Shown here: in pieces, positions 9,808 through 63,892 of the stretch
Layout: each line of letters opens with the position of its first letter
Numbering within the stretch: the stretch's first letter is position 1
Source: Sipunculus nudus
Lineage: Eukaryota > Annelida > Sipuncula > Golfingiida > Sipunculidae
DNA: 64,000 bases
NCBI GenBank assembly: GCA_026874595.1
Contig: CM049310.1
Coordinates: 55,059,058 to 55,123,057, forward strand
Reading direction: 5' to 3'
Notes under the pieces: model-generated
The model's database searches: none
Told to the model about the DNA's origin: nothing
The model's input: only the letters and a program-made list of their open reading frames with translations
Translations under genes and position numbers: made by a program

Positions 9808-11475
9808 ATATGGGTAGTCGACAAGCGACTACTTGTATCCGCCTAAATCAGAGTGGAACGGGTGAAGTGTTGCATATTAGCATGGATGTCTGCAGCCAAA
9901 TTGTGCATGTAGGTTGCGCTACCTACGAAAAAATCCAGAAAGCTCTATACACATGCAAAACTTTGGCCCAATCGGTCAAACGGTTCCCAAGATATGAGCT
10001 TGGATATCTGCTGCATAAACTAGAATGCAGGTGGCGCCACCTGTCATAAAATCAAGAGAGCTGTCGGGGATGTATAAACAAAATTTTAGGCAGATATGTC
10101 AAACCACTGCCGAGATATGAGTGATTTTATCCCATGGCAGACAAACAGATAGGAGCTGTGCAAACATGGCTGCAGGTGGCGCCACCAGTTTTGCATATGA
10201 TAAAGAGCTATGTGAGATTTATACACATGCAAAATTTTTGCCCAATCGGTCAAACAGTTCCCTAGATATGAGCTTGGATGTCTGCAGCGTAAACTTGATT
10301 GTAGGTGGCGCCACCTGTCATAAAATCAGAAAAGCTATCCAGGATGTATAAGCATGCCGAATTTCAGGTGAATTAGTCAAACCACTGCAGAGATATGAGT
10401 GATTTTAACCCAAGGCAGACGAACAGATGGACACTGTGCAAACATGGTTGCAGGTGGCGCCACCATTTTTGGTGTATGTTATAAAGCTCTCCAAGGGCTA
10501 CATTTGTGCAAAAGAATTTTCCTGATCGATCAAACGGTTTCCTAGATATGAGCTTGGATGTCTGCAGCGTAAACTTGATTGTAGGTGGTGCCACCTGTCA
10601 TAAAATCAGAGAAGCTATCCAGGATGTATAAGCGTGCCGAATTTCAGGTGAATTAGTCAAACCACTGCAGAGATATGAGTGATTTTAACCCAAGGCAGAC
10701 GAACAGATGGACACTGTGCAAACATGGTTGCAGGTGGTGCCACCATTTTCAGTGTATGTTATAAAGCTCTCCAAGGGCTACATTTGTGCAAAAAAATTTT
10801 CCTGATCGGTCAAACGGTTCCTGAGTTATGAGCTTGGATGTCTGCAGCTTAAACTTGAATGTAGGTGGCGCCACCTGTCATAAAATCAGAAAAGCTATCC
10901 AGGATGTATACGCATGCCAAATTTCAGGTGAATTAGTCAAGTCACTGCAGAGATATGAGTGATTTTAACCCAAGGCAGACAAACAGATGGACACTGTGCA
11001 AACATGGTTGCAGGTAGCGCCACCATTTTTGGTGTATGTTATAAAGCTCTCCAAGGGCTACATTTGTGCAAAAGAATTTTCCTGATCGGTCAAACGGTTC
11101 CTGAGATATGAGCTTGGATGTCTGCAGCGTAAACGTGAATGTAGGTGGCGCCACCTGTCATAAATCAGAAAAGCTATCCAGGATGTATACGCATGCCCAA
11201 TTTCAGGTGAATTAGTCAAGTCACTGCAGAGATATGAGTGATTTTAACCAAAGGCAGACGAACAGATGGACACTGTGCAAACATGGTTGTAGGTGGCGCC
11301 ACCATTTTTGGTGTATGTTATAAAGCTCTCCAAGGGCTACATTTGTGCAAAAGAATTTTCCTGATCGGTCAAACGGTTCCCAAGATATGAGCTTGGATGT
11401 CTGCAGCGTAAACGTGAATGTAGGTGGCGCCACCTGTCATAAAATCAGAAAAGCTATCCAGGATGTTTATACTTA
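9808..11475 (+). repeat. Satellite array, about 280-bp dimeric unit with GGTGGCGCCACC core
   Basis: Roughly 5-6 units of about 280 bp, each made of two halves of about 130 and 149 bp. Each half carries one copy of (A)GGTGGCGCCACC(T). Core copies lie near 10030, 10175, 10303, 10451, 10583, 10733, 10863, 11013, 11143, 11292 and 11422. Conserved flanks include GATCGGTCAAACGGTTCC, GAGCTTGGATGTCTGCAGC and AACCACTGCAGAGATATGAG. Frames on the minus strand such as those near 10942-11433 arise from unit periodicity and are not genes. A diverged inverted copy lies at about 51960-52890. Confidence 0.9.
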
Positions 11476-16100: not shown

Positions 16101-19100
16101 ACTGTTTTGAGATACTGTGATGCATATGAAAAAATTTACAGATGGACAGGCAAGTGGACAGAATGGACTGATACCTTTATTTCACTATCAGGGAAATAAT
16201 GCATTTATGTTTATATTTAGCATATCCACTTTTTCCATTAAAAGTTTTTATCAGATTTATACAAGATTTTTTATCAGGTTTCAAAATGTGCCCTGTTAAT
16301 GGACAGCCGGCCAGATGGACTACGGACAATGGGCCATGACTATAGCTCGCTCAGATGACTTATAGTCAGCTGAACTAAAAACTGTGACTCATTTTGACAT
16401 ATTTTTACCGGTTAGTTAAAATTGGGGGGTGGGTGGGGGGGGGGGGGGGGGTTGGCAATTATAGTCCTCTGACCAAATAAATCATCTATTGTTTTTATCT
16501 CTCTTCAATTCATAAGACACATCAGTGGTGAGAGTTTGGTGACTGAGTCTGAAATTTTTTTGCGTTATTGCACTTACATCATTTAAGCAAAACTGCCTCT
16601 GTGATCTTGAAAAATATGTCAAGGTCATTCATGTTTGTACCTGACCTTGACCTTTACAAAAATGCACTAGTTGTGTGAGTATGGTGACTTTATATCCATT
16701 TGTTTTCAGGTTATTGCCCAATATATATATTAATACTGGATGGATGGTCAGACAGATGGACAGATGGACAGATGCTCACCATTTCTATATCCCCTACCAG
16801 CAGTGCCTTTGGGCACAGACAACCTTTATTCTGAGAAGAGCAAGACAAATATAACAAGCTAAATTAAACAAAATAATTAAGCTACTCACGGTATACATTT
16901 GTCAGATTACACAAGGCCCATACAGCCCAGTGCTGAGCCTGGGGCGTATCAAACACCACCAAAAGTCGGATAATTGGCTCAAAGGATCTGTGAACAAAAA
17001 GCATTTTCAATTAAAAATGTATTAAAAAAATATAAGGTTTCCATGAAATACCATATACATTTGCATTAAAATATAGAAATGATAGGTTCGGTTACCAGTC
17101 TTGTGCAAACTATCACTGCATTGATTTTGAACTATCAAGAAAAGCTTGGGTAAATTACCAACCAAATTGGAAAACGGGGAATTACCAGTATATATTGATA
17201 ATATCTTTGTTTATATTTTATAAAATCTTATCTCTACAGTTTAGGTTCTGCGTGTAATCAAGGATAAAAAACCTTCACGTAACACTGAAAATTGATACAT
17301 CGTGAAAACTCAGCCTCGGGGGAATATGAAGCCAACCACTATATTACCTGTAATTGTTGTTCCTGTCAGCTTTAAAGTTCCAGTTTTACCTAATTAATGT
17401 TCCTGTCAGTGTTAATGTTCCGGTATTACCTGTAATTTATGTTCCTGTCAGCATTAAAGTTCCAGTATTACCTAATTAAAGATCCTGTTGGTGTTAATGT
17501 TCCTGTATTACCTGTAATTTATGTTCCTGTCAGTGTTAAAGTTCCAGTTTTACCTAATTAAAATTCCTGTCAGTGTTAATGTTCTGGTATTACCTGTAAT
17601 TTATGTTCCTGTCAGTGTTTAAGTTCCAGGATTACCCAAGTAATGTTTCTGTCAGTGTTAATGTTCTGGTATTTCCTGTAATTTATGTTCCTGTCAGCAT
17701 TAAAGTTCCAGTATTACCTAATTAAAGATCCTGTTGGTGTTAATGTTCCTGTATTACCTGTAATTTATGTTCCTGTCAGCGTTAAGTTCCAGTATTACCT
17801 AATTAAAGTTCCTGTCAGTGTTAATGTTCCGGTATTACCTGTAATTTATGTTCCTGTCAGCGTTAAAGTTCCAGTATTACCTGATTAAAGTTCCTGTCAG
17901 TGTTAATGTTCTGGTATTACCTGTAATTTATGTTCCTGTCAGCTTTAAAGTTCCAGTATTACCTAATTAAAGTTCCTGTCAGTGTTAATGTTCTGGTATT
18001 ACCTGTAATTTGTTCCTTTCAGCGTTTAAGTTCCAGAATACCTAATTAAAGTTCCTGTCAGTGTTAATGTTCCGATATTACCTGTAATGTATGTTCCTGT
18101 CAGCGTTAAAGTTCCAGTATTACCTAAGTAGAGTTCCTGTCAGTGTTAATGTTATGGTGTTACCTGTATTTAATGATCCTGTCAGTGCAATGTTTCGGAA
18201 TTACCTGTAATTAATGTTCCTGTCAGTGTTAATGTTCTGGTATTACCTGTAATTAATGTTCCTGTCAGCATTAATGTTCCATCGATCCATAGCTTTCTCC
18301 ATCCGTGAAAGGACCTCTTCTCTTGATGGATTGTCTACGTTCCATGCTGATGCTCCGTCAAACGTCATATGAGCGAGGACTCCACAAGCATTGTAAGACA
18401 CCTCAATACCATCACTGGTAGACTCTAACAGGTCACTGGAAAATAGGATATCAATTGATATCAATCACTGAATGAAAACCATTTTTTGAAGGTTATTTTA
18501 TAATACGGGTGTAACAATGCATTAAAAAATCAATGCATTGAATTGCAAGCCCTCCATTAAAGTGTAATCGATTATTGAGTTTTGAATCGATTCATTTATA
18601 TTATTTTTTTTTGCATACATGTACCATCTCAAAGTCCTGCGAGTTCTCAAATTTGTCAAAGCTCTTCATCGCTTTATGCCCTAATTCTACTTTAAATGTT
18701 CACTGTTGGACCACTCTGCTTGCATAGAAACATATATGGTGGCAACAATCAGAGAGAGAACTACATTTTTCTTTTAATTGCTGAAATTTACTTATGTCCA
18801 TTTTGGTAAAATTGCTTTTATTTTTTTATATAATTTGAATTTTACTTCTTTAGTAAGAACTGAATTGAGAAATGGATCAAAGGTAAAGAACCAATAATTG
18901 AATCGATTCAAAGGGTCCCCACAAGTCACAATTTTAACTAGACATTTCTTGGCACCGCAGGTGGCATAGTATCCCCAGACAATTAATCCCCCCCTTTAAG
19001 AATAGGCCCCCCATCTTCAGCAACAATTAATATCAGACCACACTCATAGAAAAGGTCACTCTCACAGAAAAGGTCATGACCCCAATTTCAATATACATCA

Positions 19101-22100
19101 TCCCCTAACCCATGTCTATGTATATGCATAATATGAAAGAAATCTGTCCATAAGTTTTTGACTTATAATGCTCACAGTACTATTAAGTGGCAATGATGGG
19201 GTATTAAATGGCATGAAAACAAGTAAAAGAATAACAGGTGGTGCTATCAGTTTCCGGTACATGACAACACTATCCAAGATCTTCGGTCAAATTGTTTTTG
19301 GACCAATCAATGCATCCCTTATTGAGATATTAATGATTTTGTGTGATTTTCACCATATATGGCAATATTTAAGGTCAAGGCCACTCTCATAGAAAAGGTC
19401 ATGACCCCAATTTAAATAAACATCATCCCATAACCCATATCTTATGTATATGCACAATATGAAAGAAATCTGTCCATTAGGTTTAGACTTATAATGCTCA
19501 CAGTACTGTTAATTAAGTGGCAATGATGGGGTCTGAAATGGCACAAAAACAAGTAAAAGAATAACAGGTGGCGCCAACTGTTTCCAGTACATGACAATAC
19601 TATCCAAGATCTTCAATCAAGTTGATTTTTGGACCAATCCATGCATCCCTTATTGAGATATTAATGATTTTGTGTAATTTTCACCATATATGGCAATATT
19701 CAAGGTCAAGGCCACTCTAATAGGAAAGGTCATGACCCTAATATATATATACATCATCCCATAACCCATGTCTATGTATATGCATAATATGAAAGAAATC
19801 TGTCCATTAGTTTTTGACTAATAATGCTCACAGTACTGTTAAGTGGCAATGATGGAGGTATTAAACGGCACGAAAACAAGTAAAAGAATAACAGGTGGCG
19901 CCAACTGTTTCCGGTACATGACAATACTATCCAAGATCTTCAATCAAGTTGATTTTTGGACCAATCCATGCATCCCTTATTGAGATATTAATGATTTTGT
20001 GTAATTTTCACCATATATGGCTATATTCAAGGTCAAGGCCACTCTAATAGGAAAGGTCATGACCCCAATATATATATATACATCATCCCATAACCCATGT
20101 CTATGTATATGCATAATATGAAAGAAATCTGTCCATTAGCTTTTTACTTATAATGCTCACAGTACTGTTAAGTGGCAATGATAGGGGTATTAAACGGCAC
20201 AAAAACAAGTAAAAGAATAATAGGTGGCGTCACCTGTTTCAGGTACATGACATTACTATCCAAGATCTTCGGTCAAGTTGATTTTTTGGACCAACCATGC
20301 ATCCCTTATTGAGAAATTAATAATTGATTTTGGGATCAATCCATGCAAGATTTCTTGAGATATTTAAGAATTTGTGTGATTTTCCCCAAAATTGGACCTA
20401 TTCAAGGTCAAGGTCACTCTCACCGAAAAGGTCATGACCCCAATTTCAATATACATCATCCCCTAACCCATGTCTATGTATATGCATAATATGAAAGAAA
20501 TCTATCCATTAGTTTTTGACTTATAATGCTCACAGTACTATTAAGTGGCAATGATGGGGTATTAAATGGCACGAAAACAATAAAAGAATAACAGGTGGTG
20601 CCACAGGTACATGACAACACTATCCAAGATCTTCGGTCAAATTGATTTTTTGACCAATCAATGCATCCCTTATTGAGATATTAATGATTTTGTGTGATTT
20701 TCACCATATATGGCAATATTTAAGGTCAAGGCCACTCTCATAGAAAAGGTCATGACCCCAATTTAAATAAACATCATCCCATAACCCATATCTATGTATA
20801 TGCATAATATGAAAGAAATCTCTCCATTAGGTTTAGACTTATAATGCTCACAGTACTGTTAATTAAGTGGCAATGATGGGGTCTTAAACGGCACAAAAAC
20901 AAGTGAAAGAATAACAGGTGGCGCCAACTGTTTCCGGTACATGACAATACTATCCAAGATCTTCGATCAAGTTGATTTTTGGACCAATTCATGCATCCCT
21001 TATTGAGATATTAATGATTTTGTGTAATTTTCACCATATATGGCTATATTCAAGGTCAAGGCCACTCTAATAGGAAAGGTCATGACCCTAATATATATAT
21101 ACATCATCCCATAACCCATGTCTATGTATATGCATAATATGAAAGAAATCTGTCCATTAGTTTTTGACTTATAATGCTCACAGTACTGTTAAGTGGCAAT
21201 GATGGAGGTATTAAACGGCACAAAAACAAGTAAAAGAATAACAGGTGGCGCCACCTGTTTCCAGTCCATGACGATACTATCCAAGATCTTCGATCAAGTT
21301 GATTTTTGGACCAATCCATGCATCCCTTATTGAGATATTAATGATTTTGTGTAATTTTCACCATATATGGCTATATACAAGGTCAAGGCCACTCTAATAG
21401 GAAAGGTCATGACCCCAATATATATATATACAACATCACATAACCCATGTCTATGTATATGCATAATATGAAAGAAATCTGTCCATTAGTTTTTTACTTA
21501 TAATGCTCACAGTACTGTTAAGAGGCAATGATAGGGGTATTAAATGGCACAAAAACAAGTAAAAGAATAACAGGTGGCGCCACCTGTTTCTGGTACATGA
21601 CATTACTATCCAAGATCTGCGGTCAAGTTGATTTTTGGACCAATCCATGCATCCCTTATTGAGAAATTAATGATTTTGTGTGATTTTTACCATATATGGC
21701 AATATTCAAGGTCAAGGCCACTCTCATAGAAAAGGTCATGACCCCAATTTAAATGTACATCATCCTATAACCCATATCTATGTATATGCATAATATAAAA
21801 GAAATCTGTCCACAAGTTTTTTTACTTATAATGCTCACAGTACTGTCAAGTAGCAATTTTATGGGTATTAAAAGGCATGAAAACAAGTAAAGAATAATAG
21901 GTGGTGCCACCAGTTTCTGGAACATGACAACCCTATCCATGATCTTCCATCAACTTGATTTTGGGATCAATCCATGCAAGATTTCTTGAGATATTTAAGA
22001 ATTTGTGTGATTTTCCCCAAAATTGGACCTATTCAAGGTCAAGGACACTCTCCTAGTCAAGGTCATGACCTCATTTTAAATGAGCGTCGTCCTCTCACCC

Positions 22101-35522: not shown

Positions 35523-38500
35523 AATGAAAATTGCAGAAGGTAATTTATAATTATGTGTGTCACCTGTTTTGCAGGAATGGAGTCTCTGAAGCATGCATCA
35601 TATGCACAGTCATACAGACCGAGGAAGTCAAACATTCGCCCCTCAAGACCAGGAATGCTGCATCTTCTCCCATCATTCCTACAACAGATAATCCAAAAAA
35701 ATTTTAGGAACTATTGCTCTAAAAATTTAACTTACAACAATAACTGTTTGGCACTAAATAATTTTCCATCCATATGGTCATTAAAAGTAATGTTCACACT
35801 ATGGAGGTGTTACAGAGATGTATTCCACCAAATTCCCCTAATTCATACAGTATAAAGTAAACAAATACAAAAAACAAGGGACCAATGGGTCACATCGCTC
35901 AGCTGAATTTTGGAAAATATTAGTAACTGTAAAAATATTTTTATTTCTTTTAGTTTTTCATGTATAATATCATTAGAAAAGCTATGAGAAAATTGCCCTG
36001 CTAAAATGAAACTCTGTAAATTATAGAATAATGGACATGAGCTAAACCATTTAGTGATGCACCAAGGGAACAAATAGGCCTACGGTAAGTGTTATATAAA
36101 AGTAACATTTCATAAACAAATAATGTGTGAAGGTAATTAAGTTTCAAAAGTTAAATATATGGCCATATGAGTTAAAAATTAATCCCACAAAGTTTGACCA
36201 ATATTCCTAATTTTAATACTAAGTTAATAGTGTTATGCACACCTAGGCCCCGCCAACTTTAAGAGATATGAATGGTATGCTACAAAGTATTTATATCTTC
36301 TTAAATCTTGTCAGTTAGCACTAAATTAGATCCTAATATTTTATCACATTTGAATATTAGGATTAAATTCCTGAAATTTTTTTCTTTAAAAAAATCAAAA
36401 TTGTCCAAGTCTCATCAAAAAGAATTTATTTAACATTAAAATTGTAAGATTCAACTTGTTTATTAGTCCTGTGTATTGAAGGGGTGGGTGGGGGGAGGGG
36501 TCTCTGTTGTCACTGCTTCTTGCTGTTAATTTTAATATTCATCTAGTTCATAGTAAAGGTCTGTCAACAGAATGGGGGGGGGGGGGGGGTGCCAGAGAAA
36601 AAGGATCCCTGTGGTATGGTATTAACTGCAGACAGCCTGATCAAGCTCAACTCAGTGGAGAGAGGGCTTGCCCTAGTAATGGGATTGCATAACATTATGC
36701 CAACAGCCTGGGGAGCATAGAGAGCTGCACTGAATGACCCACAGTCAACAAAGTGGACTGCTTGACAATGTAAGAAAATACAACAAGAGCCTCCAAAAAA
36801 TTCAATAACTAGCCTAATTTTGCAGCTTTTATTTTCAAATTTCAGATTTTAACTGATTAAATCCTTATGTGCACATGCTGTGAAAATTAAATCCACAGTA
36901 CTTACAGGAAAAAAACGTGCCATGGCCAAAGTTGGGCAAATTTTAAGGTACCAATTTTTATTTTTGCTCATATTTTAAAAAATTTAACAGATTTTGATCT
37001 AAGTTTTGGTATACAATTAAATTTTGATTAATTACAGTTGTATTACTGAAAAAAAGTCCCTACCTTTAACACTTTTGGTCTTAAGTGACCAAATAACTCT
37101 CCTGATTTTTTTACAAAGTCCATTATAATTGAGCCCATAACTTTTAAATTATATAATACAGATCTTATTTCTGGCATGTACATAGGAACTATATAGAGGA
37201 ATATTTATGGTAAATATGAGGAAAAACAGATGAGTGGTTTTTATATTAGGCAGTCCTGAAGTGTGAATATATGTTTTTAATAAAAAATTGAGGTTTTTCC
37301 TTAATATCTTGAAGGAACGAAGTCCTAATGAGCCAATATTCGGCACGGTAAAATGTCATGGGGACATCTAATATTATGCCAACAGATTGGGGAGCATAGA
37401 GATGTGCACTGAATGACCTACAGTCACCAAAGTGGACTGCTTGACAATGTAAGGGAATACAACAAGAGCCTCCACAAAAATGCAATAACTAGCCTAATTT
37501 TGCAGCTTTTATTTTCAAATTTCAGATTTTAATAGATAAAATCCTTATGTGTACATGCTGTGAAAATTAAATCTACAGTACTTACAGGAAAAAGACGTGC
37601 CGTGGCCAAAGTTGGGCAAAATTTAAGGTACCAATTTTATATTTTTGCCAATATTTAAAAAAAATTTAACAGATTTTGATCTTATTTTTGGTATACAATG
37701 AAATTCTGATTAATTAAAGTTGTATTACTGAAAAAAAGTCCCTACCTTTAACACTTTTGGTCTTAAGTGACCAAATATCTTTCCTGATTTTTTACAAAGT
37801 CCATTCTTTTTTGGCCCATAAATTTTTTTAATTAAATAATACTGACTTAATTTCTGGCATGTACATAGGAACTATATAGAGGAATATTTATGGTAAATAT
37901 GAAGAAAACCACATGAGTGGTTTTGATATTAGGCAGTCCTGAAGTGTGAAAATAGATTTCTAATAAAAAATTGAGGTTTTTCCTTAATATCTTGAAGGAA
38001 CTGAGTCCTAATGAGCTAATATTCGACTCGGTAAGATATCATAGGGACATCTAACTTTTTGCCAAATTTCAGATTCGTAGGTCCAATGGTGTTAAAACGT
38101 GCCAGTCTTAGGGACGGACATCCGGACGGACGGGTAGACGGATGGACGACGGACAATGGAACACAACTATAGCTCAGATGACTTATAGTCAGCTGAGCTA
38201 AAAATTCAAGTACACAGCAGGCAAATAAGAAGGGCATGACTGAAAACCAAGTTATTCAACATATAGCAGAATATAGTATGATAATTTCATGGTCTTAATT
38301 AAGAATTGGATAAACCAATGTTTACATTATATAAAGTATATTTATTGAATGATTCCCAATACATGTAAGCTCACATTGTCCTGGCCTGCTTGTGCAGCCT
38401 GTGAGAAACCTCTTCTGGTTTCTGGAAGCCAGCCAGATTTGTACCCGAGAGGTCCAGTGCTGTCAGGTGAGGGAGATGATGAAGCAGCGAGCTTAGGTGC

Positions 38501-41500
38501 TTCTCTGTATCATCATACAGGACAATGTTATCATAGCCGTGGCTCAAATCAAGTAACCTGAAAGACAGGGCAATGTTATCATAGCTGTGGCTCAATCAAG
38601 TAACCTGAAAGACAGGATAATGTTATCATAGCTGTGGCTCAAATCAAGTACCCTGAAAGACAGGACAATGTCATCATAGGCATGGCTCAAATCAAGTAAC
38701 CTGAAAGACAGATCAATGTCATCATAGCCAAGGCTCAAATCAAGTAACCTGAAAAACAGGATAATGTTATCATACCCATGGCTCAAATCAAGTAACCTGA
38801 AAGACAGGACAATGTTATCATACCCATGGCTCAAATCAAGTAACCTGAAAGACAGGACAATGTCATCATAGCCATGGCTCAAATCAAGTAACCTGACGAA
38901 AGATGTTATCATACCCATGGCTCAAATAAAGTAACCTGAAAGACAGGACAATATCATCATACCTGTGGCTAAATCAAGTAATCTTAAAGACAGATGTTAT
39001 CATACCCATGGCTCAAATCAAGTAACCTGAAAGACAGGATAATGTTATCATACCCATGGCTCAAATCAAGTAACCTGAAAGACAGGATAATGTTATCATA
39101 GCTATTGCTCAAATCAAGTAACCTGAAAGACAGGACAATGTCAACATAGGCATGGCTCAAATCAAGTAACCTGAAAGACAGGACAATGTTATCATAGCTA
39201 TGGCTCAAATCAAGTAACCTGAAAGACAGGACAATGTTATCATAGCTATGGCTCAAATTAAGTAACCTGAGAGAGAACAGGACAATGTCATCATAGCCAA
39301 GGCTCAAATCAAGTAACCTGAAAGACAGGATAATGTTATCATAGCTATGGCTCAAATCAAGTAACCTGAAAGACAGGATAATGTTATCATACCCATGGCT
39401 CAAATCAAGTAACCTGAAAGACAGGACAATGTTATCATAGCTATGGCTCAAATCAAGTAACCTGAAAGACAGGACAATGTTATCATACCTGTGGCTAAAT
39501 CAAGTAATCTGAAAGACAGATGTTATCATACCCATGGCTCAAATCAAGTAACCTGAAAGACAGGATAATGTTATGATACCCATGGCTCAAATCAAGTAAC
39601 CTGAAAGACAGGACAATGTCATCATAGCCATGGCTCAAATCAAGTAACCTGAAGAAAGATGTTATCATACCCATGGCTCAAATCAAGTAACCTGAAAGAC
39701 AGGACAATGTCATCATAGCCATGGCTCAAATCAAGTAACCTTAAAGACAGGATAATGTTATCATACCCATGGATCAAATCAAGAAACCAGAAAGATTTTA
39801 TCATGTATGACAATGTAATCACAACAAAGCTCAAATCAAGTAACCTGAAATATTTCATCATAAAAGACAATGTTATCATACCAGTTGTTCAAATCAAGTA
39901 ACCTCGAATATTTCATCATACAAGACCATGTTATCATACCCATGGCTCAAATCAATCTACCTGAAAGACAGGATGATGTTATCATAGCCATGGTTCAAAT
40001 CAAGAAACCTGAAATATTTCATAATGCAGGACAATGTTATCACAGCCATGGCTCAAATCAAGTGACCTGAAAGATATCATCATACAGGACAATGTTATCA
40101 TAGCTGTGGCTCAAGTAAAGTAACCTGAAGCACAGGCTGATGTTATCATAGCTATGACTCAAATCAAGTAACCTATAACGTTTCATGATACCGGATGATG
40201 TTAACACAGCCCAGGCTCAAATCAGGTAGGTGGTTGACCTGAAACATTTTATCATATGCTGCCATATTTTTATAGCCATTGCTCAACGAGTCAAATTAAG
40301 TTATCTGAAAGAATCATTATATAAGATGATTTTATGAATATAATGTAAAATATTGATCATTTTTAATGAAATAAATATTTATCTTTAAATGAATTTTAAA
40401 ATTTGTTTATATGACCTGACCTTGCAACAAATAAACAGTTTTGCAATAATTTAAGAAGTACTACACTGTCTTGATAAATTATAAAAGTGAGGATGTTTTA
40501 ACTATACTTATGTTGCAATAACTTAAAAAATTGTCAATTTCCTGTTTTCCAAATGATTTAGACTGAAAATGATCTCAAAACCTGTCATTTGTATGAGAGA
40601 ATATTCATTTTTTAATAATTCTTTTTATGGTCATTGATAACTGAATTGATTCTTGTGATGGAAATCATATAGTTTTCATTGTCATGCCATTAACAATTTC
40701 TTGTATAAGTTATCTTTTTGAAATCACATCATATATGATAATATTGATACTGAAGGTCAGTTCACATGTGTATCCTATAATGGTGCTAGCATTGTTGATT
40801 ATATGGTATTATCAGTAGATATTATGCATTGTTTATCTGATTTTGAAATATTAGATTTTGACTTGTCTGACCATTTTCCAATATGTTGTAGGTTCACTTG
40901 CACCAAACTGCACACATCATTGTATTCCTCTATGCACCTGCACCCTTATCAGAGAATCCAGTGGAAACCTGAACTAGCACATTCCTTGCACCAGAATGTT
41001 TTGGATCAGACAGGTAATGTTACAGTTGCAGACTTTAAGCATAATATTTTATATTCAGAAGTTAATCATCAAGAAATTGATCAATCAGTAAGTATTTTAG
41101 AAAATATTTTGTTAATTGCATGTGCTCACATGTCCAAACCAGCACAAAATAAATCATTAAGACAACCAGCCTGGTGGGACACTCAGTGTGAAACCCTGAA
41201 AAAGATTAAATATTCAGTATTAAACAAATTTAGGAATTCAAAAAATTTATTACATTTGGAAAAATACAAAAATAAAAAACAGCAGTTCAAAAGAATTTGT
41301 AGGCAAAAATTGTTGAAATATAAACACAAGTTACAATGTTCTTTAATTGATAAAATAAATAAACCAGATAAATTTTGGAAAGAAGTAAAATTATTAACAA
41401 GAGTACAAAGGAAAAATGTAAACATTAATCCAGAAGAATGGTATACTTATTTTAATGACCTTCTCAATGTTAAGGTAGAGATAAATTCTTCATTTGAGAA

Positions 41501-44500
41501 GAATGTCAATAATTATTTAGAAAATCATGATTTATGTTGTGAAATGTGTTCTCAAAATTCCCCATCTATTCTTAATTCTGCTATTTTGGAAAGTGAGATT
41601 ACGTGGAGTATTGAAAACACAAATGTAAATAAGGCACCTGGAACTGATGGACTCATTATAGAAGTATTTAAATGTACCAAAAATATCATAATTCCTTATT
41701 TATCTATCCTATTTAATCAAATAATGGTAACTGGACATTTTCCTAAGAGGTGGACAGAAGCAATACTTCACCCTTTACATAAATCAGGAAATCATAATAA
41801 TGTGAATAATTATAGAGGGATTGCCTTGTTAAATACTGCAGGAAAGATATTTACTAAAATTCTCTGTTCAAGAATAACAAGATGGGCCATAGAAAACCAA
41901 AAATTATATGAATGTCAAGCTGGATATAGACAAGGTTATTCCACTACAGACCAAATTTTTACATTACAAGCAATAATACAGAAATATTTAAGCAAGAAAA
42001 AAGGGAGGGTTTATTGAGTTTTTGTCGATTTTAGCAAAGCTTTTGATAGAATTTCACATAAGTTACTTTTATACAGATTAATTAAAATAGGGATTCATGG
42101 AAACATAATTAAGGTATTAAAATCCATGTTTGAAAAGTTAACTTGTTGTGTCAAGGTAGACAGTGGTTTAACAGAAGAATTTAAATGTTTTAATGGTACA
42201 AGACAAGGTTGCTTATTAAGCCCAATATTATTTATTTTATATCTTAACACATTCTTTGAAATGGTTCATGAAACACAGCTTCCTGGTATTCAGATGTCAT
42301 TACAACACAGAGATATAAATATTTTGGCCTTTGCAGATGACATTTGTCTCATTGGAGACTCAGTTGGAAGACTTCAAAGCTTATTGAACATTTTAGAAAA
42401 ATTCTGTGACAGATGGGGTGTGCAAGTCAATATTGATAAAACTAAATCTATGGTATTTAGAAGGGGAGGAACGGTAAAGCAAAATGAGAAATGGTATTTC
42501 AAGGGTAAAAAGCTTTTAAATGTTAATAGTTATACATATTTAGGAGTTATGTTCTCTTCATCACTGAAATGGAACCAATATTTAAATATACTTATGTTGA
42601 AAACAAGTAAAGGTTTAAATATTATAAAGAGTTGTGAATCAAAATGTGGTAAAATGTCGCTATCAGTCATTTTGACTATTTTTGAGAAAGTTATAGTCCC
42701 TTCACTACTTTATGGTTCAGAAATATGGGGGTCCATTCCAAGACCAAAAATAGAATGTATGCAATCACGTGTTTGTAAGCAACTCCTTGGTGTGAGTAAA
42801 AAAACAGTAAATACTGCTGCCATATTAGAATGTGGAAGGTACCCTCTACACTGTATATATTTTAAAAGATGTATAAGTTATTGGTTAAAAATTATCTCAA
42901 TGGAAAATTCTAGATACCCAAGATTATGTTATAACACTCTCAAACAATTAGATGATATAGGAAGAAGCACATGGGTGACAGATATAAAACTGCTGTTAAG
43001 CAGATATGGTTTTAGTTTTGTATGGCTTGAGCAAAGTGTAGGTGACAGAAAAATGTTTGTGAATATGTTTGTACAAAGGGTTAAAGACAATAGCCAGCAA
43101 GAAATGTTAGCAGAAATCCAAAGTAAATCTAAGCTTAGTATATATAGTGAAATTAAATCAGCAATAGAACCAGAAAAATATTTATATAATATGGCATTTG
43201 TATACAGACAGGCTTTATCAAAATTTAGATTAAGTGACCATTGCTATGAAATTGAAATTGGAAGGAGATATAATGTACCCAGAGAAATGAGGATCTGTAA
43301 AATGTGTGACCAAGATGAGGTTGAAGATGAGATACATGTTTTATTTTATTGCTCTAGATATGAAAATATCAGAAAAGAATTTTTTACATCTTTCAAGGAA
43401 ATTCCAAAAAATATATATGGTTTAATTAAGCTATTAAAAACTCAGTCTTTTAATGTCCTTTTGAATGTAGCTAAATATTTATTTCAGGTTAACAAATTAA
43501 AGAAAGAACTTGATGTGACAGAAACTTTATGATTATGAAACAACACAACAGCAGGTAACACAACCATGTTTATATGTATGTATTAACTGCATGTTATCAT
43601 GTTACATGTTTATTGTTCAATTGCATTTATTTATGTTTATATTTGTACCATGGGCCACAAGGCCTTTTTCTACAATAAATTTCTTCTTCTTCTTCTAATA
43701 TTATCTTAATTTCTTATTCTTGTCAGGGCCAACAGAGAATACTTATATTATTGACTAACAGATGTCTAGATATTTCATGCCAGTCGTGATACCAATACAC
43801 TTACCTTAACTGTGTAAGCTTTTGAATTCTTTCAAAGGCTTCTCCAAGATCTCGGAGGTAAATGTTGTGAAGTTTGAGAGTGGTGAGCTGTTGCATATTA
43901 TCAAGACAGTGCAAATGATGAAGAGATATATCACAATACGACAAGTCCAGGTAGTTCAGCCTCTGTAATGGCTCCAGAATGTGGAACACTGTTTTAACCG
44001 AACCTAAATCTCTCATACTTAATGCTTTTAACTTTGGGCAGTGAAGGTTTTGCATAGAGTCCTCCTCCTCAAATAATACTGGTGCGTTGCCACCTAAACA
44101 TAACGCAACGAGACCCTCCGAATGTTTGCTAATATCAGCCACTGTCATTGGTGCTACACTCAGGCATTCTGATATATCAAGTTCCATCAATCTGTGTTTT
44201 AACATCCACTTGAGGGCAACACCTGTGATATCTGTGTTTCTTGTACTGAGTTTACGAATGCGACTTTGCAGGGGATCCCGGAAGAGATGCATGAATGCAT
44301 CATCCAGTTTGTAACCACATTCCACCCGCAGCGCCATCAGCCTCTCACCAATATGACTCGGTAGAGTTAATTCGGGGAACAGTGAGTAAGCTTTGGCCTC
44401 TTCATCATAAGTGGCAAGTACATTCAGATTTCTTGCACAGTAACTGAGGCAGATATCACAAAGACTGGCAGGCTCATCCCACTCTGGCTCTAATGCAACC

Positions 44501-44505
44501 GCCAT
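12927..44505 (-). CDS. ZER1: Protein zer-1 homologue, CUL2 substrate receptor
   Basis: Substrate receptor of Cullin-2/Elongin ubiquitin ligases; ZER1 and ZYG11B recognise N-terminal glycine degrons. Coding exons, 5' to 3': 44505-43805, 38557-38375, 35678-35564, 34319-34170, 33532-33411, 32180-32126, 31256-31203, 30522-30361, 28630-28469, 27405-27358, 26883-26816, 18435-18247, 16987-16890, 13114-12927. All junctions are GT-AG with compatible phases. The sum is 2295 nt, 764 residues, against about 766 in vertebrate ZER1. Order: N-terminal box (1-60), leucine-rich repeats (about 60-320), ARM-like repeats (about 335-740). Degron-pocket family motifs are present: WNVTDE from W541, and GNLAE at 585-589. 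The exon 12 stretch GIEVSYNACGVLAHMTFDG and RNINYR favour ZER1 over ZYG11B. An acceptor at 44516 shows a non-coding upstream exon. Confidence 0.95.
13303..16380 (+). mobile_element. Outer helentron/pearl-like element, interrupted by an inner copy
   Basis: A left end (ACGAGGGACCCATGGGTCAC) at 13303 is followed within 40 bases by a second left end at 13343. Two right ends of the same family lie at about 15925-15975 and 16320-16380. The simplest reading is one element inside another. The outer right end has a small internal duplication (AGCTCGCTCAGATG). It lies in the zer1 intron between 13115 and 16889. Confidence 0.6.
13343..15975 (+). mobile_element. Inner helentron/pearl-like element with tandem core
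   Basis: Left end ACAAGGGACCTATGGGTCAC; right end a run of GACGGACG then ACAATGGACCACGACTATAG and the TCAGCTGAGCTAAAAA hairpin block. The core holds two diverged monomers (about 14600-15130 and 15250-15850) sharing CGTGCCATGGTCAAAGTTGG, TGGTTTTGATATTAGGCAGT and GGTAGGGGATT/GGTAGGAGAT-like blocks. The same monomer occurs in the elements at 22916 and 35874. No long reading frame. Confidence 0.65.
17343..18246 (-). repeat. Minisatellite made from the zer1 exon 12 3' end and its splice donor
   Basis: Alternating 42-bp and 40-bp units, about 22 in all (about 11 dimers). On the minus strand each 42-bp unit reads ACATTAACACTGACAGGAAC, then ATTAATTACAGGTAATACC-like sequence; the 40-bp unit loses the CAG (TTAATTAGGTAATAC). 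The exon end itself is AACATTAATGCTGACAGG followed by AACATTAATTACAG with donor GTAATACC, so the array continues the exon edge across the junction without a break. Many 42-bp units keep CAG/GTAATA, a usable-looking donor. Confidence 0.93.
18247..18435 (-). CDS. ZER1: zer1 coding exon 12 (ARM repeat exon)
   Basis: Codes residues 607-669 plus two bases of Arg670. It contains the most conserved part of the family (SDGIEVSYNACGVLAHMTF, then WNINADRNINYR). The end of the exon has an internal near-repeat, AACATTAAT...AACATTAAT, which is the apparent seed of the flanking minisatellite. Acceptor TTTTCCAG at 18436, donor GTAATA at 18246. Confidence 0.95.
18935..22180 (+). mobile_element. Interspersed element with about nine internal tandem units of about 330 bp
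   Basis: Starts with CATTTCTTGGCACCGCAGGT and ends near GCCAACAAGATTTATATGC. The core is a tandem array with AAGGTCATGACCCCAAT recurring about every 325-370 bases (near 19070, 19396, 19726, 20056, 20430, 20748, 21078, 21404, 21735 and 22062). Each unit also has ACAGGTGGCGCCAACTG or variants, ATCCAAGATCTTCGGTCAAG and CATCCCTTATTGAGATATTA. A single-unit relative with the same ends lies at 27488-28010. It sits in a zer1 intron of 8.4 kb. Minus-strand frames at 20792-21940 are periodic by-products. Confidence 0.85.
22916..26070 (+). mobile_element. Helentron/pearl-like element, 3.15 kb copy
   Basis: Left end ACAAGGGACCCATGGGTCAC then GGCGCTCAGCTGA; right end a GACGGACGGACGGATGGACA run, ACAATGGACCATGACTATAG and TCAGCTGAGCTAATAATT. 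The core holds the same monomer type as the 13343 and 35874 copies, about two copies at 24690-25235 and 25360-25930. It contains a short G run at 24525-24536. Located in the intron between zer1 exons 11 and 12. Confidence 0.65.
26816..33532 (-). CDS. ZER1: zer1 ARM-repeat exons 5-11
   Basis: Seven small exons: 122, 55, 54, 162, 162, 48 and 68 bp. They code residues 384-606. Recognisable family stretches are ASASLFYVV, LRNGCLTLCQF, QRIGIHLLNCLCCQVEGH, MWNVTDETPINCERF, LIRNMMGLM and GNLAEVKYLRPYLM. Intron phases agree at all six internal junctions, and there is no stop. Introns between them are AT-rich; only the 28.6-30.4 kb intron holds an additional coding-looking frame. Confidence 0.93.
27488..28010 (+). 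mobile_element. Short single-unit relative of the 18935-22180 element
   Basis: Begins TTTCTTGGCACCGCAGGTGC, like the array element, and runs through one core unit (AAAGTTCATGACCCCAAT, TATGTATATGCATAATATG, ACAGGTGACGCCACCAG). It then jumps to the right-end block (CCAACAAGATTTATATGCGG, with AACATAGTATCCCCCGAC after it). It contains two C runs near 27538-27570. Confidence 0.75.
28990..29310 (+). CDS. Unidentified coding-like fragment inside a zer1 intron, opposite strand
   Basis: An open frame of about 100 codons ends at TGA 29308-29310. It has no ATG near its start and an in-frame stop at 28987-28989, so it looks like a terminal exon or a gene remnant. The composition is unlike the surrounding intron: ordinary mixed residues (LFVDLLTDLLAMLHELTED, HDFDDNCYGVHIKRD) and a basic tail ending QKKAKKH, with no low-complexity bias. 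I do not recognise the family. It lies between zer1 exons 8 and 9. No convincing pyrimidine-rich acceptor is visible at its left edge. It could be a nested gene's last exon or a decayed retrocopy. Confidence 0.35.
   Translation, partial: GVSEKKGTGVTNILFQYKRRKQRKQPLSVLSKLSSLHAHLVKQTPQNLFVDLLTDLLAMLHELTEDNASNIKGRDQHDFDDNCYGVHIKRDKDKLSTFLQKKAKKH
30780..31020 (-). repeat. Interspersed repeat fragment with GTGGTTGT/ACCACC motifs
   Basis: Sequence with repeated ACAACCACC, GGTGGTTGTAATTTCAAG and GACCACCTCGGTTTAG blocks, ending near ATTTCAAGGTTTACTGTA. It resembles the family seen at 34808-35428 and 63893-64000 but is more diverged. Confidence 0.4.
31257..33410. other. zer1 introns without recognised content
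   Basis: Apart from the 55-bp exon at 32126-32180, nothing is identified. The stretch is AT-rich, with no transposon ends, RNA genes or conserved frames seen. Confidence 0.4.
34808..35428 (+). repeat. MITE-like repeat split by an RTE LINE fragment
   Basis: The left part (ACAGTGGAAACCTACAATTA to GGTGGTCATAT at 34869) and the right part (from ATTTGTGAAATTCTAATTTA at 35309 to GGGATTTCACTGT) together match the repeat at 63893-64000, which runs straight through AATGGTTATATTTGTGAAATTC. The outer ends are short inverted repeats (ACAGTGGAAACC and GGGATTTCACTGT). It is followed by two (TA)n tracts at 35427-35462 and 35492-35520. Confidence 0.7.
34870..35306 (+). mobile_element. 5'-truncated RTE-type LINE 3' end
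   Basis: The frame codes the C-terminal end typical of RTE-type reverse transcriptases in invertebrates: LYGSEC, NNSCLRRICNIYWPNRISN, RRLSWLGHILRM, GKRKPGRPKTTWRR, and a G-x-x-W-x-EA-x-x-x-A-x-DR stretch. A TAG at 35240-35242 replaces the usual Trp codon after DRSQ, and the homologous frame continues a further dozen codons to a second TAG. The 3' end is a TAAG-repeat tail at about 35286-35306. The element sits inside another repeat, with an ATAT duplication at the joints. Confidence 0.85.
35874..38205 (+). mobile_element. Helentron/pearl-like element with two 680-bp core units
   Basis: Left end ACAAGGGACCAATGGGTCAC then ATCGCTCAGCTGA; right end GACGGACAATGGAACACAAC then TCAGCTGAGCTAAAAATT. 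The core contains two tandem monomers about 678 bp apart, both with GGGGAGCATAGAGA, CAAAGTGGACTGCTTGACAA and AACAAGAGCCTCCA (start points near 36701 and 37379). It fills almost the whole intron between zer1 exons 2 and 3. Confidence 0.65.
38375..38557 (-). CDS. ZER1: zer1 coding exon 2 (leucine-rich repeat exon)
   Basis: Codes Arg234 (split) to Met295: LLDLSHGYDNIVLYDDTEKH, then HHLPHLTALDLSGTNLAGF. This corresponds to the vertebrate KLRHLDISRDRLSSY to LMSLDISGH segment. The donor is AAT/GTGAGC at 38374. The acceptor TTTCAG/G at 38558 is one of about 36 near-identical copies; this copy alone continues into unique coding sequence. Confidence 0.93.
38558..40310 (-). repeat. Minisatellite made from the zer1 exon 2 acceptor and exon start
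   Basis: About 36 tandem copies (counting the exon itself) of a 48-bp unit, minus strand CTGTCTTTCAGGTTACTTGA followed by TTTGAGCCATGGCTATGATA and ACATTGTC. Every well-preserved unit therefore holds pyrimidine tract, AG acceptor and the first 12 codons of the exon. In frame it reads 16-residue repeats SFRLLDLSHGYDNIVL. Units near the exon are nearly identical, and those beyond about 39780 are increasingly diverged. A few units are about 42 bp or have single-base losses, which break the frame. Confidence 0.95.
40722..43697 (+). mobile_element. Non-LTR retrotransposon (LINE), 5'-truncated, one in-frame stop
   Basis: One long frame covers the C-terminal end of an endonuclease domain (DFDLSDHFPI), then a reverse transcriptase: KAPGTDG, NNYRGIALLNTAGKIF, VDFSKAFDR, GTRQGCLLSPILF, and the catalytic FADD with Asp-Asp at 42336-42341. 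A C-terminal CKMCDQDEVEDEIHVLFYC cysteine/histidine motif follows, ending at TAA/TGA near 43530. A TGA at 42015-42017 interrupts the frame just before the VFVDFSKAFD motif; the frame resumes without a shift. The 3' end has AATAAA followed by a TTC repeat (43680-43697). The 5' truncation point is about 40.72 kb. Clade (CR1/Jockey/I-like) is not settled. It lies antisense in zer1 intron 1. Confidence 0.9.
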
Positions 44506-60600: not shown

Positions 60601-63600
60601 GCAATGCAGCAGGTAGATTTGTTCATACATATTTTGTCACAAAATCTGCCATTTATTTCTTCAAATATACAGTTGGATTGTGTTAACTTGAAATTTTTTT
60701 CCAGATAAATTCAATTGCCAGACCAGTCGTTGGAAGCAGAGATTTTTCGTTCAGGGTACATGGGAGAAATACAAATGCTCAGCACAGTACATCAAGCAAG
60801 GTAAAACATAAAGACAGTATATTATTCAGGGTTCCTTACTTTTGTTTTATGAATTTTATACTACTGCAATGGTGCATAGAGCAGAAATACAGTTTGAAGC
60901 CTGTTTTATATTTGTTTGCAATCAGATTTCATAGAATAGTACTGTAAAATAAAGCTTTGATTTTAAATTAATGATTTTAAAGCATCACTTTGGTTGATTG
61001 TTAAATATACAGCAGTGTGACATAATCCACTATGGTAGAAAGGCTGTCCTTGTCAGCAGGCAGCTTTTCTAATCATCTGCTAGTCTTTTTGACTGTAAAG
61101 TCTGAAACATATAATAATTTTGTTTACCATCACAATCTTATTCTCACTTGGTTTGTTTTCTCTTTGAAGTGAAGTGTGAGGCCAGTGGGTGATCAGAGTT
61201 TAATAAGTCACAGTATGTGGCTATTTTGGCAGCTACCTTTACTTATATGAAACTCAGGTGTAATGATTTCCCCATGATATCCAACATAAAATTTAAAATA
61301 TTTAAAAAATGAAAGTTTGTAGGAAAGTTTCACCATATCTGCATTTTCACCTTATGTATATATACTGTGTACATGTTATATCAAGTAAATGTGTCTATTT
61401 TAACAGTATTATCTGCAGTTCTCAGACATTGTTTTTTGACCGGTAACAATGATTCTAAATGAACAAAAACATTATTTGTTCCAGATAACAAGTGAATACC
61501 CAGTAGTGGACCACACTTATGATGCTGTTGTGGTTGGAGCTGGCGGAGCCGGGCTTCGGGCTGCATTTGGTCTCGCAAAAGAAGGATTCAAGACAGCATG
61601 TATTACAAAACTCTTCCCAACAAGATCTCATACCGTGGCGGCACAGGTGAGGGAATTTCTTGCGGTTGTTTTGCATTATGTTGAAATTGTATCACTGCAG
61701 TTTGTTTTAGAGCATTGTTTTCTCACAACATTAAACTGATGTTTATGTGTGGAAAGAGGGGAGGGGGGTGCATGTCATGAAGGAATAGTTCTCTTCAAAT
61801 ATCCAAACAGATAAACACAAATTTGCTTTATAACAACACTAGTCCATCATATATTCAGCTCAGATAACTTTTCAGTGATGTCTTTTTCCATTGTTTGTGT
61901 AGTAGAACATTTGCATAAGCCAAATCATAACTTCTTTGACCAATCCAGTAGTCTGTTACATTAAATTACCAAGTCACAGACTTGTAGTTTGGCTTATATC
62001 AAGAGGCAAGTCTCAGTTATAACTGTTTTAACATCACATTTGTAACCATAGCATCATGATCTTGAGACTTTTCTTGAATTAAGGACTGAACTTGTATTAT
62101 AGCAACAGGCCCTAGATCAGAATTCTCACCAGGTATGAGGTCACAATAGACATTCCCTACACCTAAGCATCTAGTCACATGTTGTTTTGTTTAAATCAGT
62201 TCTGAGTATTGCATCAGGTTATCAGTGATATGATGACATCACAGTGCAGTTTTCTTGCCTCTTTGACTGATGTCACAACTGTGTTACTCTTTATTCAGGG
62301 TGGCATCAACGCTGCCCTCGGCAATATGGAGGAAGATGACTGGAAATATCATTTTTACGACACCGTGAAAGGCTCTGATTGGCTGGGAGACCAGGATGCC
62401 ATCCATTACATGACAGAACAGGCTCCAGAGGCAGTTATTGAGGTGAGTACACACTGCTGTCGTTACGTTCAGATACTGAGGTCATCATACATTTTGAGAT
62501 GATATATTACTTATATATGATTCTATACTATTCGTCTAAATAGAGTGCATACTGACTTATCATTGTTGCAATTATATTTTTAGCAATATATTTCACAGTA
62601 TCATGCAGGTAAATTATATTTGTGATTTTGCAGTTCAGATTGCCCAGTGTGTGACCGTGTGGGTCATTGTCATATATATAACTATGGTCATAGTATTTTA
62701 ATGACTGATTTTATGAGCTTTAATCATGATAAATATTGAATATCCTATTTCTGTAATTAAAGTATATAATGATCATAAATTGCCACAGTAAATCAGTTGA
62801 TGAACTGTCTTGGATGTAACCAGTGCATTGATCCCCTTAATTTTTATAATCTATTTCTGTTTTGAAAATTTACTAATATACAATCCTCTTGGTCTATATA
62901 ATTTGAAGGGTATTTGTTAGTATATCTAATTGAAAACAGGTGTCTGAATTTTATATTATTCATCTGTTTATATTCAGCTGGAGAATTATGGTATGCCATT
63001 CAGTCGTCTGGAAAACGGAAAGATCTACCAGAGAGCATTTGGAGGTCAGAGTTTGAAGTTCGGGACAGGAGGTCAGGCTCACAGATGCTGCTGCGTAGCG
63101 GACAGAACAGGACACTCTATGCTGCACACATTGTACGGCAGGGTAAGCATAAGAGCAGATAACTGTGTTCTTTAAACTACTCCATAGCCCAACCTTCTGG
63201 GGTACCTGGTATAGTGGTCAGCTCCATCCATTTGTCTGTGCATCAGTTAACTCTTCATATCTCAAAAACCATCACGCATTTGGGCATGCTTGCTTTATTA
63301 GGTTTTGGGAGGCTATATTGCATTTTTCCCAATTGTATATGAATTTTTAAACATGACTATCGCATTTCATACAGGACAGTATATTTCAGAAATTATGGCT
63401 CTGGTTCAATTCTAATTAATTAGAAATTAATTCTATTGATTAATTTATCTCAAAATTATTATGTTATTAAATTGACCTTGCTTAGAATTTTTTTAACTTA
63501 TTAGAAAGCTGAAAGAACAGCAAGGTTTTAGACTGTCCCTGGCTATGATGTGTAATTTGGAACTGTTTATTTCAGTCACTGCACTACGACACTGACTACT

Positions 63601-63724
63601 TCATTGAGTACTTTGCGCTGGATCTGCTGATGGAGGATGGTGAGTGCCGAGGCGTGGTGGCTCTGTGTTTAGAAGATGGTTCCATTCACAGGTTTAGGTC
63701 CAAGAACACAGTCCTTGCAACGGG
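56786..63724 (+). CDS. SDHA: Succinate dehydrogenase flavoprotein subunit, mitochondrial (3' part outside window)
   Basis: Catalytic FAD subunit of complex II, oxidising succinate to fumarate in the mitochondrial matrix. Exons: 56786-56845, 60705-60800, 61485-61646, 62299-62442, 62978-63142, 63576-63724; the next exon lies beyond the edge. All junctions are GT-AG and in frame. The first two exons code a basic, hydroxyl-rich presequence ([20 protein letters not shown] start). Exon 3 has the dinucleotide-binding GAGGAG and TRSHTVAAQ, whose His carries the covalent FAD. Exons 4-5 carry [59 protein letters not shown] and [13 protein letters not shown]. Exon 6 ends at NTVLATG. The start at 56786 is preferred over the in-frame ATG at 56753, which would add MRRSVKESFRI. 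Confidence 0.96.
56846..59166. other. SDHA intron 1, left part
   Basis: It contains a (TA)n microsatellite at about 57597-57638. An open plus-strand frame at 58108-58353 has mixed composition but no recognised similarity and no splice context. Nothing else was identified. Confidence 0.4.
59168..60472. mobile_element. TIR element (composite) in SDHA intron 1
   Basis: Left end AGGCCATCCTTAAAAAATTC with TGTGATTGGG; right end, inverted, AACACAGATTTTTTTTTAAG with GATGGCCT. A third copy of the terminus in right-end orientation lies inside at about 59900-59992 (CGACCAGCCGGGTTAGCCCC, AGAATTTCTTAAGGATGGCC). The right and internal copies share the longer block ending in AGCCCCAAC. Two overlapping or nested non-autonomous copies are the simplest reading. 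No transposase frame. Confidence 0.55.
60801..62977. other. SDHA introns 2-4
   Basis: Apart from exons 3 and 4, no additional feature was recognised in these introns. The intron starting at 61647 has a short G-rich stretch near 61754-61770. Confidence 0.4.
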
Positions 63725-63892
63725 GTAAATGTTTTTGCTGGTCTTCTTAGATAGTTATTAGTTCAGCTGTAAATACAACGGCCTCTTGCTTGTTAAATAC
63801 CCTAATGCAATGACCACTCTGCCATGAAAACCACTCTTTTAGGCATCTGGTGATAAGTTTGGCCAGTATAAATTGTTTTTTTGCACTATACT

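Follow-up and report, generated by a model that had tools for sequence, protein, structure and literature searches.

The minus-strand gene of the window, by which we mean the whole analysed stretch of 64,000 nucleotides from Sipunculus nudus, is a homologue of zer-1 by its predicted domains, and two of its exons are continued into the neighbouring introns by tandem arrays whose units span an exon-intron boundary. The larger array lies upstream of coding exon 2, where each unit resembles the true 3' splice site. We consider it quite probable that this feature is a minisatellite born from an exon edge, a so-called mirage, whose acceptor copies are tolerated and among which exon definition would select the site.

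The identity given to the gene in the first-pass annotation is supported by a Pfam LRR_Zer-1 match (E 5e-23) that bridges the junction of coding exons 1 and 2. An alignment to ZYG11B (9bid; E 7e-7) takes in the stretch about this junction. In addition, the ZER1-like_2nd domain matches a later exon. Coding exon 1 (43805..44505, minus strand) starts with the ATG at 44505 and ends in phase 2 (...CAG TTA AG|GTAAGT). Coding exon 2 (38375..38557, minus strand) has its acceptor AG at 38559-38558 and the donor AAT|GTGAGC, its 3' end being assigned from the consensus; wrap-around alignment of the array puts its first exonic base at 38557. The later exon with the ZER1-like_2nd domain (18247..18435, minus strand) ends in ...WNINADRNINY(R) with the donor TACAG|GTAATA, and past the array at this donor the next exon (SFEPIIRLL...) is found at 16890..16987 on the same strand. 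Positions 2-109 of the 137 in LRR_Zer-1 are aligned over zer1 residues 175-286, across the exon 1-exon 2 junction, without space for a 16-residue insert, which argues that the exon is ancestral and the array is not. On the opposite strand within intron 1, beside the acceptor array, lie two reverse-transcriptase-like open frames of 431 and 504 aa with a stop between them (window 40722-43532, plus strand); by their motifs they are probably a non-LTR element.

The acceptor array (38558..40306, minus strand) is made up of 34 full units, followed distally by a fragment and a further, degenerate copy. Wrap-around alignment resolved the full units and the fragment together with the exon copy, and the degenerate acceptor (AG 40306-40305) lies beyond them. 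TRF reported a 48-bp unit in 33.9 copies at 38517-40174; the approximately 36 tandem units originally claimed for 38558..40310 are thus matched by about 35. The units were also said to derive from the acceptor and first 12 codons of exon 2. That derivation stands, but in each unit the pyrimidine tract and AG are followed by about 41 nt of exon 2, not by 12 codons, and the unit length, described as a multiple of three, is so for the common 48-bp unit but not for 12 of the 34 full units. As the earlier description stated, the copies look like the true splice site: of 35 junctions, the true one counted, 33 retain the AG, 19 show TTTCAG|GTTACTTG without a mismatch and 18 are identical in purine/pyrimidine code over the 26 nt upstream. 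Mean identity to exon 2 is 0.91 for units 10-34. When the exon was used as a BLAST query on the whole genome (1.43 Gb, 153 contigs), in a search that scored one candidate place and whose counts are lower bounds, at least 32 matches were obtained, all within the zer1 locus, the best array copy having an E of 2e-14. Since the nearest upstream AG is just 27 nt from the true exon 2 acceptor, the present acceptor most likely has both its branch point and its pyrimidine tract within copied coding sequence (TATGATAACATTGCCCTGTCTTTCAG), as judged from the layout of the units. RNA structure was considered as a selector of the site and dropped, the predicted fold of the exon-near array being unremarkable (z -1.6, with an equally good fold in 8 of 100 shuffles).

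Use of any of these upstream acceptors is predicted to be unproductive. When exon 1 was joined to each of the 34 upstream junctions, two of which lack an AG as segmented, a stop was reached before exon 2 in all 34 cases, so the expectation that upstream choice would yield nonsense transcripts holds on the predicted reading frames. A single TGA at 38592-38594 had been named as the stop for every upstream acceptor. This universal stop was rejected: the TGA (minus strand), situated in unit -1, which has one T fewer than the exon, terminates the seven nearest junctions, whereas ten others end at the stop at 38986 and the rest elsewhere. Such stops could be read as regulatory, with appreciable use of upstream acceptors or downstream donors and with array length tuning zer1 output through nonsense-mediated decay. 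In favor of this reading, the sequence of the decoys matches that of the true site, stops follow at the donor array (see below) as well as from every upstream acceptor, and two repeat donors are used in human IFI6 according to the excerpted text of PMC4526556. Stops are, however, expected wherever frames are mixed, as they are here with a third or so of the full units (12/34) out of frame, and the excerpts of PMC3087553 and PMC3902484 report amphioxus mirages without effect on splicing; we therefore regard regulation by leaky splicing as unlikely. No sign of a regulatory role was found in the sequence analysis of the array, and the arrays are provisionally taken as tolerated by-product DNA. 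The same frames bear on the proposal that in-frame units are sometimes included in the protein, each adding a 16-residue, leucine-rich-repeat-like module. Open stretches of LLDLSHGYDNIVLSF modules of up to 171 aa do exist, but with stops after all 34 upstream starts inclusion is impossible in the examined haplotype, the out-of-frame units count against it as well, and the family alignment leaves no space for an insert, so that diversification of the protein has next to no probability in our judgement.

The acceptor array is divided into two zones, an old distal one and a younger proximal one. In the older part (39788..40230, minus strand), six units measure 57-58 bp and two measure 48 bp; the longer kind makes up six of the nine full units farthest from the exon. 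Distal units roughly keep the next ~9 nt of exon 2 (exactly ATGATGATA in one), and the common 48-bp unit is shorter than the founder-length unit by 10 bp. Beyond the array lies what appears to be the ancestral intron tail (...ATAATGATTCTTTCAG; 40305..40345, minus strand), whose ATGAT matches an ATGAT in exon 2 and stands at the expected founder junction. That junction predicts a unit of 57 bp, and 58 is found, for which one extra base is needed. The founder unit was probably 58 bp long and joined at this 5-bp ATGAT microhomology. We propose, on the basis of these junctions, that a tandem duplication initially joined the ATGAT of exon 2 (exon nt 45-49 or 42-46) to that of the intron (13 to 9 nt before its end) and so would have produced the 57-58 bp unit; that the 48-bp unit, without the 10 bp, would then have taken over the ~25 exon-near units, with block duplications inside; and that exon 2 stays single-copy, as seen, given that all copies are on the intron side. 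The order of the two unit lengths is suggested by position and divergence in one genome. The zer1 array may accordingly display the likely founding step of such minisatellites, duplication at a microhomology.

How the array later expanded differs from what had been supposed, namely that copies are most uniform beside the exon, decay with distance and grow from the exon side. Mean pairwise identity is 0.836 in the distal part, 0.909 in the middle and 0.888 at the exon end (distal versus rest, p 8e-5; middle versus exon end, p 0.044), so the middle units and not those next to the exon are the most uniform. When all 35 upstream pieces are taken together, identity to the exon does drop with distance (rho -0.37, p 0.027), the distal units being more diverged, but among the 25 exon-near units there is no gradient (rho 0.016, p 0.94). 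Seven exact repeats of at least 60 bp were found in the array, the longest three measuring 94 bp (lag 243), 83 bp (lag 847) and 80 bp (lag 339); all are between 39741 and 38756 and none is within the last ~200 bp. Block duplication within the array fits these data better than growth from the exon side, which they do not support.

Two further accounts concern where the repeated sequence comes from. Tandem arrays are prone to mis-assembly, and the repeats might be an assembly or sequencing artefact; most units, however, differ from one another and fall into distinct distal and proximal classes, the 1.7-kb array is located inside a 93-Mb contig and comparable arrays are present at further loci, all of which makes an artefact very improbable. 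The direction of copying might instead be reversed, the start of exon 2 having been recruited from an older intronic satellite. The close resemblance of the units to the exon would suit this origin, but the codons concerned belong to a conserved leucine-rich repeat of zer-1/ZYG11, the BLAST search reported the unit at no second place in the genome, with its match counts being lower bounds, and distal units hold more exon sequence rather than less; recruitment from a satellite is the least probable of all the explanations considered. Birth of the array from the exon edge remains our preferred reading.

A second array is present in zer1, at the donor of exon 18247..18435; it is outside the region described in the first-pass annotation and had been missed there. 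This donor array (17342..18246, minus strand, with the repeat region extending to 18281) is composed of 22 units arranged as 82-bp dimers of ~42 and 40 bp, as is also evident from the identity between units, which is 0.90-0.92 at even lags and 0.81 at odd lags. Each unit is made of the last 34 nt of the exon plus GTAATACC, and so carries the exon end ...NINADRNINY(R) with the donor GTAATA. With the exon copy counted, 20 of 23 donor units retain AGGTAA, and the array takes up ~905 of the 1259 nt of its intron (~72%). The donor itself makes a TAA (AG|G TAA; 18243..18245, minus strand), which is the first stop on read-through, and read-through to any downstream donor therefore meets TAA as the first codon past the exon. 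Among 12 exon spans tested in the window (eight of zer1 and four of a second gene), two have nearby copies. In the second gene, whose plus-strand exons lie at 61440-63740 and which is succinate dehydrogenase flavoprotein-like by its open reading frame text, all four spans were free of repeat copies.

If the exon-adjacent copy is the one used, the likely reason is exon definition. We propose that it singles out the exon-adjacent unit through pairing with the exon 2 donor and through exon-body signals beyond nt 41, that the decoys would be mostly ignored, with leakage leading to premature stops and decay, and that selection may remove arrays growing into exons. Because the true acceptor is the last transcribed of many equals, first-come models would fail at acceptor arrays and exon definition would be needed. 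The true donor, in contrast, is transcribed first, so choice by order of transcription could work at the donor array, though not at the acceptor array. Since zer1 has arrays of both kinds and other genes of this genome have further ones, kinetic models in which the first transcribed site wins could be separated from exon-definition models. If transcripts confirm that the exon-adjacent copy alone is used, ~26 nt upstream plus tens of nt downstream would be insufficient to define an acceptor, since many decoys carry that same local sequence, and exon definition would have been directly tested in a natural gene.

Canestro 2002 is among the works cited on the mirages of amphioxus. According to the excerpts of PMC3087553, these mirages occur at 5' as well as 3' boundaries, their edge units escape homogenisation and splicing is apparently undisturbed; the excerpts of PMC3902484 add the cases of troponin C and PGBD5. 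The zer1 units likewise span an exon-intron boundary, on the acceptor and donor sides, many of them keep the AG or GT (AG 33/35; AGGTAA 20/23), and the acceptor array is homogenised inside and less so at its edges. Unlike the mirages of the two BflGb6 haplotypes, with 6 and 3 units, the zer1 arrays have ~35 and 22. Also unlike them, zer1 has two arrays in one gene and a traceable founder junction. The zer1 host, with its genome of 1.43 Gb, does not resemble Branchiostoma, whose genome is ~0.5 Gb. The mirage cases named in the excerpts of PMC3087553 and PMC3902484 are from cephalochordates. On their structure, as predicted here, the zer1 arrays can be classed as mirages, which suggests that this kind of array is not peculiar to lancelets. 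A minisatellite with multiple splice donors in human IFI6 (6-16) is reportedly the subject of Turri 1995. In IFI6, two downstream repeat donors are used and give rise to isoforms, according to the excerpts of PMC4526556. The zer1 repeat at 17342-18246 similarly offers several donors at an exon end, known here from sequence alone; unlike in IFI6, the zer1 donor itself forms TAA, and the IFI6 unit, of 12 bp, is shorter. By analogy with IFI6, the units nearest the exon may be an exception to the proposed neglect of decoys. Intron gain by internal tandem duplication, reportedly the subject of Rogers 1989, Zhuo 2007 and Gao and Lynch 2009, is related in that the duplicated segment also holds a splice-site-like boundary. 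In contrast to such intron gain, no new intron is found between the zer1 copies, each array being confined to a single intron on one exon side. Human internal tandem repeats at exon-intron boundaries are described in the excerpts of PMC2812944. Within the literature searched, with subscription papers outside its scope, exon-edge minisatellites were seen in amphioxus and human only.

The zer1 arrays belong to a minisatellite-rich genome. In 15 evenly spaced 10-kb pieces of zer1's chromosome, 10% of the sequence is tandem array (period at least 15, length at least 150 bp). Among 108 further windows, 88 for kinesin (91 of 126 listed matches) and 20 for myosin (31 of 75 listed), four kinesin exons were found with an exon edge inside the array unit: three are acceptor arrays, with periods of 31 bp (L107; 5.9 copies in the fetched stretch), 61 bp (L088; 2.7 copies) and 72 bp (L096; 2.7 copies), and one is a donor array of 52 bp (L115; 4.1 copies). 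Exon edges in these four were read by eye and match ends are only near real edges, so the counts are approximate. No edge array was found in the 31 myosin matches of the 20 windows, where one flag (17 bp x 2.1) was inside coding sequence, and none of the four matches of a ZYG11-like paralogue on C4 overlaps a TRF array of at least 150 bp. A 52-bp TRF array at that paralogue (L009:8994-9584) was set aside as intronic, starting ~50 bp past the donor, as were the kinesin windows L057, L065 and L121, flagged near an edge with a unit read as lacking exon sequence. The arrays in L073 and L118 stop 31 and 25 bp short of the kinesin match.

Under the stricter rule, 44 of 5730 edges at random points (0.77%) are positive. 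By the same rule, kinesin alone gave 4 in 176 edges against 1.35 expected (p 0.048), and kinesin plus myosin 4 in 238 against 1.83 (p 0.11); under the looser rule, 8 of 176 kinesin edges were positive, versus 20 of 1200 random edges in 500-bp windows (p 0.02). These p values are rough, coming from overlapping windows, one chromosome and four cases chosen by eye. The rate at exon edges is at least that at random points, so no sparing of these edges is visible in this genome, and enrichment at them is not firmly shown. Since edge arrays are not significantly commoner than at random with myosin included (p 0.11), no special exon-linked process is needed. The zer1 donor array and the arrays at other genes probably arose in the way proposed for the acceptor array. 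That exon-edge minisatellites form a genome-wide class here, with decoy sites at a few percent of exons and dozens of them in the largest arrays, has in our view about an even chance of being right; if so, the genome would provide a natural mass experiment on splice choice. Other arrays recur with periods of 276-283 bp (window 9971-11466; L010, L012, L013, L017, L025 and L026) and of 326-339 bp (window 19052-22081; L010, L015 and L016), perhaps as dispersed families, judged by period alone. At G000:C2:44849337-44854198, successive myosin-head matches fall on nearly one stretch of the profile (~90-153), a run that resembles a cluster of alternative exons.
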